From Halorubrum trapanicum (GTDB lineage Archaea > Halobacteriota > Halobacteria > Halobacteriales > Haloferacaceae): a stretch of DNA of 64,000 bases. Each line of letters begins with the position of its first letter. Within the stretch, counting starts at the first letter, position 1. The translations under genes were made by a program, and so were the position numbers. Of this stretch, positions 5,735 through 43,759 are shown piece after piece. The notes below the pieces were generated by a model. The model ran no database searches, had not been told where the DNA came from, and saw only the letters and a program-made list of their open reading frames with translations. The DNA is taken from the NCBI RefSeq assembly GCF_002355655.1, contig NZ_AP017569.1:372001-436000 (forward strand). The letters run 5' to 3'.

Positions 5735-5926
5735 TGCGCGGGACCGGATTCGAACCGAACCCAGACGTGCTCGCTTCGCTGCGCGCGTCTGGGAGGGTTC
5801 GAATCCTCGCAACGATGAGTCTCCTCGCGAACTGCTCGGAGACACATGCGCGGGACCGGATTCGAACCGAGGCGAGAAATGCTCGCTCACTCCGTTCGCT
5901 GCGCCTTTCTCGCTGGGCTCAAATCC
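5735..5926 (-). repeat. two hairpin cassettes ending in tRNA-Leu 3' tails
   Basis: Downstream of tRNA-Leu, on the same strand, two units (5847-5926 and 5735-5806) each end in the T-arm plus 3' acceptor strand of that tRNA. Each begins with an inverted T-loop-like sequence (GGATTCGAACC or GGATTTGAGCC) and holds an inner perfect stem that differs between units: CCCAGACG/CGTCTGGG in one and GCGAGAAA/TTTCTCGC in the other. The loops share GCGCAGCGAA and GCGAGCA. No D-arm or anticodon arm is present, so these are not tRNA genes. They could be attachment-site scars or structured transcript ends. Confidence 0.8.
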
Positions 5927-5967
5927 GCTCCTGCTCCCTCGCTCAGTCGCTACGCTCCTTCGCTCAG

Positions 5968-6052
5968 TGCGCGGGACCGGATTTGAACCGGCGGACCCCT
6001 ACGGGATAGCGTCCTAAGCGCTACGCCTTTGGCCTGGCTCGGCAACCCGCGC
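5968..6052 (-). tRNA. tRNA-Leu, anticodon UAG
   Basis: An 85-base cloverleaf can be folded on the minus strand. The acceptor GCGCGGG pairs with CCCGCGC, followed by discriminator A. The anticodon loop CTTAGGA gives anticodon UAG. A long class II variable arm and the T-loop GGTTCAAATCC are present. No intron is seen and CCA is not encoded. It is followed downstream by two partial 3' copies of itself. Confidence 0.95.
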
Positions 6053-15897: not shown

Positions 15898-16107
15898 TTA
15901 TAAAAGAGTGTCAGCGGATCGGTAGTGTCTATTTTCGAAACTTCAGTCACTCACTTATAAATAGTCGATTACGGATCGGTGGCGAACACCTCCAAAGACC
16001 CAGTTGCTTGTATATAAATAACTGACCGTAGATCGGTGGCAAACACCTCCAAATCCCCAGCTACTCGCTTATAAATAACTGACCGTGGACCGGCGGCGAA
16101 CACCTCC
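15898..16107 (+). promoter_or_regulatory. array of four TATA-bearing units with exact 57-bp spacing (element copy A)
   Basis: TTATAAAAG, TTATAAATA, ATATAAATA and TTATAAATA start at 15898, 15955, 16012 and 16069, exactly 57 bases apart. In units 2-4 the box is followed by a GATCGG-like stretch, an ACACCTCCAAA motif and CCCAG. Units 2-4 are closely similar; unit 1 is diverged. They look like repeated archaeal promoters pointing into the structured element that follows. The region 15811-15897 holds nothing else I recognise. Confidence 0.7.
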
Positions 16108-16387
16108 AAAGCCCCAGCCGCGAGGACTCGCGCGGCTCGGTGCGCGCTTCAGTCGCTCGCGTTGCTCGCTCCTTCCAGTGCTTGCGTCGCCTACGGCGCC
16201 CCCGCGGCTGCCCCTTTGAGTCCCGCCCCGCACCGCAACCGCACCTCACACCTCCCCAGCCTCGTCGCTCGCTTCGCTCGCGACTCCCTCGCGCGTGCGA
16301 CTCGCGCCCTGCGGGCGCTCGTCGGCACGCTGGGAGGCGCGACGCGCCTCTTACAGCCGGCGGCAGAGCCGCCGGCGACGCCACCGC
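16108..16387 (+). repeat. structured non-coding element, copy A
   Basis: Full-length copy of a dispersed element found four times in this window. Hairpin 1 has outer arms CAGCCGCG (16115-16122) and CGCGGCTG (16203-16210), with the inner stem decayed relative to other copies. A conserved single-stranded spacer with CCCCTTTGAGTCCC and CCTCCCCAGCCTC follows. Hairpin 2 is GTCGC/GCGAC (16264-16284), then TCCCTCGCGCG. Hairpin 3 is GCCGGCGGC/GCCGCCGGC (16356-16376). The end is GCCACCGC. Open frames through it are arginine/serine-rich and not conserved as protein. Confidence 0.8.
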
Positions 16388-26344: not shown

Positions 26345-26415
26345 GCGCCGGTGGTCTAGTGGTAGGACCTGAGCCTTCCAAGCTCATGGCCCGGGTTCAA
26401 ATCCCGGCCGGCGCA
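26345..26415 (+). tRNA. tRNA-Gly, anticodon UCC
   Basis: A 71-base cloverleaf: acceptor GCGCCGG pairs with CCGGCGC, discriminator A, anticodon loop CTTCCAA giving UCC, T-loop GGTTCAAATCC. No intron; CCA is not encoded. Its 3' end is copied four times in the next 400 bases. Confidence 0.95.
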
Positions 26416-26866
26416 TTTCTCGAACGTAGTGAGAGAAATCGCCGAGGGATTTGAATCAGAGAGCGAGCGAAGCGAGCGACCGTGGTTCAAATCCCGGCCG
26501 GCGCACTCCCTGCGGTCGTGCGCCGCCCGTACTCCCACTCGCTCGCTTCGCTCGCTCGCGGGAGTCCCGGCCGGCGCATTTTCTGACTGACTTCGTCAGT
26601 CAACGTCCGCTTCGCTCCGCTCAGCGGACTCTCGAACGTAGTGAGAGAAATCGCCGCGGGATTTGAACCCCATCAGTCGCGCGCAGCGAACAAAGTGAGC
26701 GAGCACGTCTGATTCTGGTTCAAATCCCGGCCGGCGCACTCCCTGCGGTCGTGCGCCGCCCGTACTCCCACTCGCTCGCTGCGCTCGCTCGCGGGAGTCC
26801 CGGCCGGCGCATTTTCTGACTGACTTCGTCAGTCAACATCCGCTTCGCTCCGCTCAGCGGACTCTC
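26416..26866 (+). repeat. tandem hairpin array with four tRNA-Gly 3' tails, 233-bp period
   Basis: Two tandem units follow tRNA-Gly. tRNA-Gly T-arm/acceptor tails end at 26505 and 26738 (longer tail, GGTTCAAATCCC onward) and at 26578 and 26811 (short tail after GGGAGTCCC), in both cases 233 bases apart. Each unit contains: CTCTCG/GAGAG, inverted T-arm GGGATTTGAA facing GGTTCAAATCCC, ACTCCC/GGGAGT (26531-26565 in unit 1), TGACTGAC-ttc-GTCAGTCA (near 26583 and 26816) and CCGCT/AGCGG hairpins. The segment inside the T-arm inverted repeat differs between units, while the rest is nearly identical. No coding sequence or integrase is present; 26867-26959 holds nothing I recognise. Confidence 0.85.
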
Positions 26867-26959
26867 GACCACTACGAACGAGGAGCGACAGCGACGAGTG
26901 AGTCCGGAATCAATCCAACCGCGTTTAGGCCGGAAGTGTGGAGGCCGTCGATCGAACTC

Positions 26960-34428: not shown

Positions 34429-34667
34429 GCGGTGGCGCGTGCCTCCGAGTGGCCGCCGAAGGCGGCCGCGAGGAGCGCGCGCGAGGGAGTCGGCCGACCG
34501 CAGGGAGGCCGACGAGGCTGGGGAGGGGAGAGGTGCTGTGCGGGGCGGGGTGGGACTCGAAGGGGCAGTCGCGAGGGCGGCGCAGGCGACGTAAGCACTG
34601 GAGGGAGTGAGCGAAGCGAACGACCGAAGCGCGCAGCGAGCGTGCGCCGCCCTCGCGACTGGGGCTT
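34429..34667 (-). repeat. structured non-coding element, copy B
   Basis: Minus-strand copy of the dispersed element. Hairpin 1 arms CAGTCGCGAGGGCGGCGCA (34566-34584) and its exact 19-base complement (34643-34661). Hairpin 2 is GTCGGCC/GGCCGAC (34489-34513). Hairpin 3 is GGCCGCC-gaa-GGCGGCC (34451-34467). The spacer between hairpins 1 and 2 and the end motif GCCACCGC are conserved. The stem sequences differ from those of the other copies but keep pairing. Confidence 0.85.
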
Positions 34668-34790
34668 CGGCGGTGGTCACCGCAGATCTGTATTCGAATA
34701 TTTATAAGCGAGCGACTGGGGCTTCGGCGGTGGTCACCGCAGATCTACTGTCAGTCGTTTATAAGCGATCGACTGGATCCTCGACGGTAT
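34668..34790 (-). promoter_or_regulatory. 57-bp phased TATA units of element copy B
   Basis: TATA-like TTATAAA boxes (minus strand; plus positions 34701 and 34758) are 57 bases apart. Each is followed, in element orientation, by AGATCTGCGGTGACCACCGC and GAAGCCCCAG; GCGGTG-ac-CACCGC is itself a perfect small hairpin. A more diverged third unit reaches about 34790, next to the msrA stop. They point into copy B. Confidence 0.7.
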
Positions 34791-42699: not shown

Positions 42700-43592
42700 T
42701 GGGCGCTTCCGCGGGACCGCTCGGCCCCCTCGCGATCGCGGGGACGCTGGAGCCGTACCTCGGGCCGGCGACCGGTATCGTCGTCGACGCCGCGATCTTC
42801 CTCGCCGTCGTCGTCGCGACGTACGTCCTCTACAAGGCGGTCGTCGCCCCGCTCGCGCAGCGGGTGTTCGACAGGCAGGGGCTCGACGAACACGCGCGGC
42901 GGCCGCTCCAGAAGATCGTGGCGTTCCTCGTGTTGTTCGCGGGCGTCACGGTCGCGTTCGGCGCGGCGGGCTACCAGGGGTTCCTGCGCTCGCTGGCGAC
43001 GATCGCGGCCGCGGCGACGCTCGCGATCGGCTTCGCCTTACAGGACGTGATCAAGAACTTCGTCGCGGGCGTGTTCATTTATACGGACAAGCCGTTCCGC
43101 ATCGGCGACTGGATCGAGTGGAACGGGAACTCGGGGGTCGTCGAGGACATCTCTTTCCGGGTCACCCGCGTCCGCACGTTCGACAACGAGCTGCTCACGG
43201 TGCCGAACCACGCCCTGACGAGCGACGTGGTGAAGAACCCGGTCGCGAAGAAGACGCTCCGGCTGAAGTTCGTCTTCGGGATCGACTACGAGGACGACGT
43301 CGAGAAGGCGACGGACATCATCGTCGAGGAGGCCGAGAGGAGCGACGCCATCCTCGAAGACCCCGCGCCGTCGGTCCGGCTGACCGAGCTGGCCGACTCC
43401 TACGTCGGCCTCCAGTCGCGGATCTGGATCGACGACCCGTCGCGGGCCGACTTCGTGAAGGCGCGCGCCGACTACGTGAAGGCCGTCAAGCGGCGGTTCG
43501 ACGAGGAGGGCATCTCGATCCCGTTCCCGCAGCGGACCGTCTCGGGGCGCAACGAGTGGACGGACCCCGCGTCGTTCGGCGGGGGCGACTGA
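42699..43592 (+). CDS. MscS-family mechanosensitive channel
   Basis: Small-conductance tension-gated channel, 297 residues. Three membrane segments (IVVDAAIFLAVVVATYVLY; KIVAFLVLFAGVTVAFGAAG; and the pore helix FLRSLATIAAAATLAIGFALQDVIKNFVAGVFI). The beta domain begins FRIGDWIEWNGNSGVVEDISFRVTRVRTFDNELLTVPNHAL, typical of MscS. It would release osmolytes on dilution stress, which fits the K+ uptake genes that follow. Its 3' end (SFGGGD) is tandemly repeated downstream. Confidence 0.93.
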   Translation: MGASAGPLGPLAIAGTLEPYLGPATGIVVDAAIFLAVVVATYVLYKAVVAPLAQRVFDRQGLDEHARRPLQKIVAFLVLFAGVTVAFGAAGYQGFLRSLATIAAAATLAIGFALQDVIKNFVAGVFIYTDKPFRIGDWIEWNGNSGVVEDISFRVTRVRTFDNELLTVPNHALTSDVVKNPVAKKTLRLKFVFGIDYEDDVEKATDIIVEEAERSDAILEDPAPSVRLTELADSYVGLQSRIWIDDPSRADFVKARADYVKAVKRRFDEEGISIPFPQRTVSGRNEWTDPASFGGGD

Positions 43593-43690
43593 ACGGACCG
43601 TCACGTCGTTCGGCGGGGGCGACTGAACGGACCGTCACGTCGTTCGGCGGGGGCGACTGAACGGACCGTCACGTCGTTCAGCGGGGTCGA
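43571..43690 (+). repeat. 34-bp tandem repeat, 3.5 units, of the mscS 3' end
   Basis: Units of 34 bp start at 43571, 43605, 43639 and (partial, two changes) 43673. Each holds GTCGTTCGGCGGGGGCGACTG, i.e. the last codons of mscS and its TGA. The first unit is within the gene, the others are untranslated. Since 34 is not a multiple of three, readthrough would be in another frame. Confidence 0.9.
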
Positions 43691-43759
43691 CTGACGGATC
43701 GGCCGCGCCCGGCGGGGTCGATAGTAACGAACTTGAGGGTCCGGTAACTGGGTGTGCCC

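Follow-up and report, generated by a model that had tools for sequence, protein, structure and literature searches.

Architecture of the array behind tRNA-Gly(TCC)

Downstream of a tRNA-Gly(TCC) gene, copies of the tRNA's own tail recur between hairpins, and the segments between the copies differ from one repeat to the next. What kind of element is built from the end of a tRNA gene, and by which process do its parts change? We addressed this in a stretch of 64,000 nucleotides (the window, G000:C1:372001-436000) from a genome of 3.08 Mb, and then in related genomes. The gene lies at 26345-26415 on the plus strand (ARAGORN and Rfam RF00005, 71 bits), and its array sits between a gene of the DoxX family and one for an ABC-2 permease. 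The array is composed of cassettes of the form h1-X'-h2-X, in which h1 and h2 are hairpins, X repeats the final ~22 nt of the host tRNA (here 26394-26415) in direct orientation and X' is an inverted copy.

All features of the array lie on the plus strand. The first cassette begins with the h1 linker hairpin TTTCTCGAACGTAGTGAGAGAAA, read directly in the sequence at 26416-26438 and found in near-identical form at the orthologous locus of other genomes of the genus. It continues with X', an inverted copy of the tRNA T-arm (26445-26457), an h2 of family R (CAGAGA...GACCGTG, 26458-26483) and X copy 1, identical to the tRNA-Gly tail (26484-26505). Next comes a class IV hairpin consisting of an inverted acceptor end, a stem-loop and a partial tail (26506-26578). 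The h1 of the second unit (26579-26656) comprises a TTTTCTGACTG... hairpin, a CCGC...GCGG hairpin and a TCTCGAACGTAGTGAGAGA hairpin, followed by X' (26657-26669), an h2 of family P class I (CATCAGTCGCGCGCAGCGAA...GCGAGCACGTCTGATT, 26670-26716) and X copy 2, again identical to the tail (26717-26738). A second class IV hairpin with a partial tail (26739-26811) and trailing h1-type hairpins (26812-26868) bring the 233-nt repeat to its end. Class IV pieces, whose arms consist of the acceptor end only, are also found in orthologous arrays. No gene or recombinase was found inside the cassettes in the arrays read.

The original prediction described a 233-bp tandem array with four tRNA-Gly tails. The array is real, but here it amounts to two copies only, and two of the tails are full while two are partial. 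The 21-nt tail is identical at 26485-26505 and 26718-26738; the partial copies, which end at 26578 and 26811, have 5 of 21 mismatches and share only the ~14-nt T-stem/acceptor end. The exact offset of 233 was recovered between 26483-26635 and 26716-26868 (153 nt, 99% identity). The block left of the insert is likewise repeated (26418-26455 and 26630-26667, 97%), at an offset of 212 rather than 233 because the two inserts differ by 21 nt in length. Their complete difference, noted before, was borne out since they belong to separate hairpin families, R and P/class I.

A second array in the window is hosted by tRNA-Leu(TAG) on the minus strand (5968-6052). It has two units, the first with X' at 5928-5916, a class I h2 and X at 5868-5847 (5847-5928 in all), the second with X' at 5808-5796, a class I h2 and X at 5756-5735 (5735-5808). 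The GCGCAGCGAA / GCGAGCA loop ascribed to this array is present, and it also occurs in the second Gly unit.

Occurrence within and among genomes

In the window's genome, we scanned stretches around 44 of the 45 tRNA genes for copies of each tRNA's own last 21 nt, with at most five mismatches and within 1,200 nt of the tRNA. Such tail copies were found for 17 of the 44, two of which are tandem tRNA-Asp genes with one common array; the 45th tRNA has no tail copy in the stretch viewed. Class IV half-tails alone, judged by eye, stand behind Ala-CGC, Ala-GGC and Arg-CCG. A genome of another family, G071, has tail copies at 22 of 42 tRNA genes. The copies are mostly spaced by 70-160 nt, and hairpins fill the spacing.

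The linkage to tRNA genes was also recovered starting from the hairpins. A degenerate palindrome pattern gave 63 matches in G016, G071 and G184, and leaving out the two inside tRNA genes, 57 of 61 follow a tRNA on the same strand at a distance of at most 700 nt. The other four stand behind a tRNA-Trp-like sequence, behind a tRNA-Arg pseudogene and, in two cases, a long way downstream of a tRNA whose tail is the same. One of these distant matches has a tail identical to that of Arg-TCG, 54.8 kb away; the other is a G016 array parted from its tRNA-Gly by an integrated element. Across Halobacteria, 68 of 82 class I matches have a tRNA on the same strand at most 700 nt upstream.

Of 293 Halobacteriales genomes, 257 contain the signature palindrome ATTTGAA-N25..55-TTCAAAT, which is found in 82 of 87 genera; its reversed control turns up in 4 of the 293. 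The genomes of the order that have no match include several of genus g46. In the window's genome the reversed control pattern has no match, against five for the real one. As the reversed control is almost empty, chance is excluded as the source of the arrays. A stricter form of the palindrome matched 16 of 19 genomes within the order; among 101 genomes from elsewhere in the phylum it matched 2, and both of these look like A+T-rich chance. A search with the class I pattern over 84,980 species returned 93 stretches, and 79 of the 80 matches listed are haloarchaea by title. One class I match (L244, PXTT01000074.1) comes from a contig assigned to a Bacteroidetes MAG, which may reflect misbinning or transfer. 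In a search of Rfam 15 at gathering score, the tRNAs alone matched and the hairpins corresponded to no known structured RNA, so a known RNA family was rejected as a source. An element CACTTTTTCCGAG...CTCGCAAAAACTTGGGGAAAAAG...CCGCTA.CGGCTGT recurs at or near the end of arrays in G071 (L181, L199, L203, L206, L211) and G045 (L111).

The arms follow the local tRNA

X' tracks the T-arm of its host tRNA. Over 19 units of the window's genome, X' differs from its own tRNA by 33 mismatches in total; permuted assignments gave a mean of 62.5 and a minimum of 45, and none of 20,000 was as low as observed. In the outer hexamer of X', the resemblance to the host tRNA is only weak: there are 157 mismatches versus 173 permuted, a value reached in 97 of 20,000 permutations and, with collapsing, in 478 of 20,000. 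Variant tRNAs are mirrored as well: in G055 the arms read AATTGAA opposite TTCAATT, in G045 ATTCGAA opposite TTCGAAT. In G071 one and the same h1 plus h2 cassette stands behind Arg-CCG, Lys-TTT and Arg-TCT, with X' differing.

Hybrids occur too. A unit behind Leu-TAA of G071 has an X' that fits Leu-TAA and an X resembling the Leu-TAG tail, and the Lys-TTT array of the window's genome contains an Arg-like tail. In integrons new cassettes enter at the anchor end; in these arrays, tail copies near the tRNA are only slightly better preserved, with mean mismatches of 0.97 for copy 1 (n=40), 1.5 for copy 2 (n=16) and 1.33 for copy 3 (n=6). At Arg-TCT of G071 (L198), the acceptor part is the same in all three tail copies (CCACCGTGCCCG) but different in the tRNA itself (CCGTCGTGCCCG); it looks as if the gene end was replaced later. 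Some X copies carry an extra T-loop base (GTTCACAATC or GTTCATAATC instead of GTTCAAATC), namely at Gly-TCC of G004, G030 and G033, at Lys-CTT of the window's genome and at Phe of G071.

Cassette middles are shared between loci and replaced as blocks

The original prediction suggested a common system that borders on tRNA 3' ends, and proposed to test whether inserts match between tRNA loci. The common system held up, and inserts do match: the Gly insert and the one behind tRNA-Ser(GGA) share 93% identity across 70 bp, and among the 68 tRNA-linked class I matches this one h2 family stands behind 17 named tRNA types. Both h1 and h2 belong to small families common to different tRNAs and species.

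Orthologous tRNA-Gly loci bear out the proposed exchange of variable blocks between conserved borders. Between G005 and G020 the left flank is 92% and the right 75 nt are 100% alike, while the h2 sequences are 56% alike and belong to different families. Between G005 and G015, X'-h2-X is alike almost letter for letter and the flanks are unrelated. G026 and G029 have the linker, X' and loop core in common and differ in the h2 stem. At this locus the boundaries of exchange are X' and X, and because flanks are shared while h2 is replaced at these boundaries, the comparisons support the exchange idea. Since inserts match between tRNA loci and blocks are exchanged, the inserts are more than locally mutated versions of one another; for the two Gly inserts of the window, membership of different hairpin families together with block exchange rules out that they are point-mutated forms of each other. 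As for the suggestion of a site-specific mini-cassette, the exchangeable blocks stand, while site-specific recombination is conjectural, as no recombinase belongs to the cassettes. The exchange may proceed by homologous recombination or by template switching.

Array content at the Gly-TCC locus varies between congeneric species. Among 33 loci of the genus (32 fetched plus that of the window), six have no unit right behind the tRNA. Tandem growth is seen at tRNA-Gly of G184, with seven units of ~111 nt, some of them decayed, and at Ser-TGA of G071, where a two-unit block is duplicated. The comparisons thus indicate that units multiply in tandem, get lost and swap their middles at the X'/X boundaries. 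Content that varies in this way would be expected of something mobile and not of a conserved feature of the gene.

h2 folds imperfectly and on one strand

Watson-Crick pairs make up 97.6% of the 5-bp stem across a set of 49 distinct P-frame h2 sequences, against a permuted mean of 65.7%, and ten different perfect stems occur. These sequences had passed a filter of at least 3 of 5 pairs, which 12 of 94 P-frame strings failed, the 94 coming from a wider set of fetched loci than that behind the 49 h2 units. In 43 distinct joined-arm rows, six of seven inner pairs have changed on both sides; the covariation score of 0.342 was reached in 0 of 500 shuffles, slid controls stayed at or below 0.08, and only one cell of the inner helix is a G.U. 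Helix 1 of these rows was left unused because the X/X' pairing was biased by the search expressions: X was constant in them, and the variation they admitted in X' was mostly of the G.T type.

The fold also has conserved defects. With no pairing filter, a T stands opposite the conserved T in 66 of the 67 class I matches in which the right side was found (it was not found in 15 of 82), and 57 of the 67 have a perfect right stem. A CT/TCC internal loop and the T.T mismatch are kept while the h2 stems covary. The h2 lies in tRNA sense; ARAGORN called a tRNA on the opposite strand for 2 of the 82 matches, one of them implausible (2.4-kb span). The covarying stems and the conserved T.T mismatch therefore indicate that h2 is a one-strand, consistently imperfect fold in tRNA-sense orientation. 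Within 26458-26483, the h2 core of the first Gly unit is of a kind (GCGAGCGAAGCGAGC and similar cores) that includes GCGAAGC, an unusually stable DNA mini-hairpin, and cores bearing it have tandem G.A steps on the tRNA-sense strand.

The folding strand may be either DNA or RNA. A wobble asymmetry would be a sign of single-strand folding; G.T outnumbers A.C by 22 to 8 in 39 units, the less biased set, and by 45 to 29 (p=0.08) in a larger set that was selected by regular expressions and is biased by them. By folding energy, the sense strand is the better folder in 22 of the same 39 units and the antisense strand in 14; the 39 are those left of 41 after exclusion of one Lys-TTT hybrid and one duplicate.

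Could the hairpins act as RNA? A read-through tRNA trailer might fold and aid 3' processing or termination, or give rise to small RNAs. The position of the hairpins directly downstream of and sense to the tRNA, and their strand-specific, covarying structure, would suit such a role. So would the eight tRNAs without hairpins in both the window's genome and G071 (Thr, Cys, Gln, Asn, Tyr, Ser-GCT, Leu-CAG and Ala-TGC), of which Ser-GCT and Leu-CAG have a reading frame that apparently starts within ~60 nt. However, G.T shows no clear excess over A.C, Rfam offers no match and more than half of the tRNAs of the window's genome lack hairpins. An RNA role is possible but fits badly with a presence as erratic as that among congeneric Gly-TCC loci, and we consider the RNA explanation improbable. 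We infer a process acting on folded single strands at the DNA level.

tRNA ends are shared with ordinary integrative elements

tRNA 3' ends are classic docking sites of archaeal mobile DNA. In G016 an insertion of 8.1 kb and in G012 one of 12.0 kb separate the tRNA-Gly from its downstream sequence, and in each case the 3' half of the tRNA is duplicated over at least ~42-46 nt, from the anticodon arm to the 3' end. The G016 array is intact behind the attR copy, while in G012 h1 and a decayed unit remain behind the insertion. The G012 element encodes a protein matching Pfam Phage_integrase; the one reading frame of the G016 element that was tried against Pfam gave no match. In L230 and L268 a displaced array is immediately preceded by the end of a tyrosine integrase; in L282 the integrase at this position is truncated and falls below the Pfam cut-off.

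Arrays at such positions could be scars of these elements, that is, attR remnants after deletion, a reading suggested by the shared tRNA ends and by the integrases that adjoin some arrays. Yet the G016 and G012 duplications are longer, the G016 array is separate from its element, and the elements lack X'; they also leave the inverted X' and the shared h2 families unexplained. This reading was rejected as highly improbable; ordinary integrative elements, although they use the same tRNA ends, are distinct from the cassettes. An origin from phages or plasmids was likewise rejected: the class I pattern has no match in viral contigs, the window's array has no match among phages, and a cassette unit has one partial match among plasmids. 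The palindrome pattern was found in two viral contigs, in apparently unrelated sequence.

Candidate mechanisms

We tentatively favour, at somewhat less than an even chance, an element that acts at the DNA level and maintains itself through recombination mediated by hairpins at tRNA 3' ends. The folded sense strand (X'-h2-X) would offer a duplex with the sequence of the tRNA end, and in this form it could be copied or inserted there. The inserted unit would rebuild the tRNA end, often supplying a new T-rich start, so that the tRNA would stay intact. Template-switch correction would then make the arms follow the local tRNA. On this account, integron-like insertion would explain the fixed strand and the conserved unpaired bases, template switching would explain the tracking of the arms, and block replacement would fit the near absence of G.U intermediates from the inner helix. 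In favour of such an element stand the tRNA linkage, the tracking of the T-arm by X', the block exchange, the tandem growth, the strand-specific structure of h2 and the differences in array content between congeneric species. Against it weigh that no recombinase or gene is tied to the cassettes, that the outer part of X' follows the tRNA weakly, that copies near the tRNA are hardly better preserved, that neither the wobble nor the folding-energy counts give a clear excess, and that covariation may also stem from template switching.

Non-enzymatic replication errors, without dedicated machinery, might instead have produced the arrays. Tandem inversion duplication yields a direct-inverted-direct order, which is the order of X-h1-X'-h2-X. 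The tRNA end would undergo such duplication at hairpins, arms would be homogenised by template switching and h1 and h2 would spread by ectopic gene conversion. Homogenisation of arms is documented elsewhere in excerpts of PMC8604942 and PMC8794818, the latter noting that covariation may arise by template switching without selection. The hybrid units of the G071 Leu-TAA and window-genome Lys-TTT arrays are consistent with this, as is the single G.U cell of the inner helix, which is expected if stems change in blocks. According to PMC8604942, however, the spacer too is inverted when templates are switched from one inverted arm to the other, yet the orientation of h2 is fixed (68 of 82 matches on the strand of the tRNA, 2 of 82 opposite). 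Homogenisation would also erase the T.T mismatch and the internal loops, which persist, and it leaves aside that h2 families are common across the order. Replication errors alone are therefore, in our estimate, a somewhat unlikely source.

The favoured element may be narrowed to a gene-less, integron-like system in Halobacteria, with single-stranded cassettes (X'-h2-X), a host-encoded enzyme and insertion at tRNA 3' ends. Here the T.T mismatch and internal loop would provide strand-specific recognition, and tRNA 3' ends would be a universal set of genomic docking sites. With the arms re-templated on the local tRNA, one cassette could spread over many tRNA genes. This specific form is unlikely in our judgement.

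Relation to known repeat systems

The attC sites of integrons are imperfect palindromes with strand-specific unpaired bases and the core boxes GTTRRRY / RYYYAAC. The arrays resemble integrons in that exchangeable units, each ending in an imperfect palindrome, are arrayed next to a fixed site, and in that the folded site has conserved unpaired bases on one strand (T.T and the CT/TCC loop). They differ in that the cassettes have no ORF, the tail spacing being filled by hairpins, and in that no integron integrase was seen at the array, either among the genes next to the window's tRNA-Gly array or in the arrays read. Moreover, a genome has many tRNA anchors instead of one attI, the arms follow the local tRNA, and their sequence (TTYGAAC ... 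GTTCRAA) does not match the attC core GTTRRRY.

Junctions of tandem inversion duplications arise locally and not as conserved families. The arrays share with them the direct-inverted-direct order of X-h1-X'-h2-X and the palindromic junctions, whereas here the junction hairpins belong to order-wide conserved families in fixed orientation. This also sets them apart from the template-switch palindromes in the excerpts of PMC8604942 and PMC8794818, with which they share arm homogenisation.

Among haloarchaeal repeats, the SMR-A, PATE and MITE elements of Haloquadratum are, as described in part of PMC3119063, short, gene-less and palindromic like the cassettes. The palindromes of PATEs and of IS605-type elements serve as insertion sites of SMR-A, whose mobilisation is there called enigmatic. 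By that description these repeats target mainly other mobile elements, whereas the cassettes are bound to tRNA 3' ends and have tRNA-derived arms. Integrative elements that target tRNA genes share with the cassettes the border at the T-loop/acceptor end and the intact tRNA, as excerpts of PMC8371274 describe them. They measure kilobases, encode an integrase, often duplicate more of the tRNA and lack X', while the cassettes are gene-less and have X'.

No earlier description of tRNA-tail hairpin arrays was found in the open-access literature, the scope of our search (subscription papers lay outside it), nor do the excerpts of PMC3119063, PMC8371274, PMC12558985, PMC8604942 and PMC8794818 describe them. 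Repeats that copy each tRNA's own end and swap hairpin modules between loci and species would bring to light an archaeal process of recombination or copying that works on folded single strands, and the arrays would offer a natural system with measurable turnover. The cassettes also explain tRNA-tail repeats that could pass for prophage scars.

Other repeats in the window

Near-tandem repeats of 57 nt with the motifs CCAAAGCCCCAGC / TTATAAATA lie at 15973-16118 and 34655-34776. Letters resembling them also stand behind other tRNA loci (L049, L171), and one such stretch apparently interrupts a Gly-GCC unit. A 34-nt tandem repeat is found at 43570-43698, with 3.8 copies and 96% matches.
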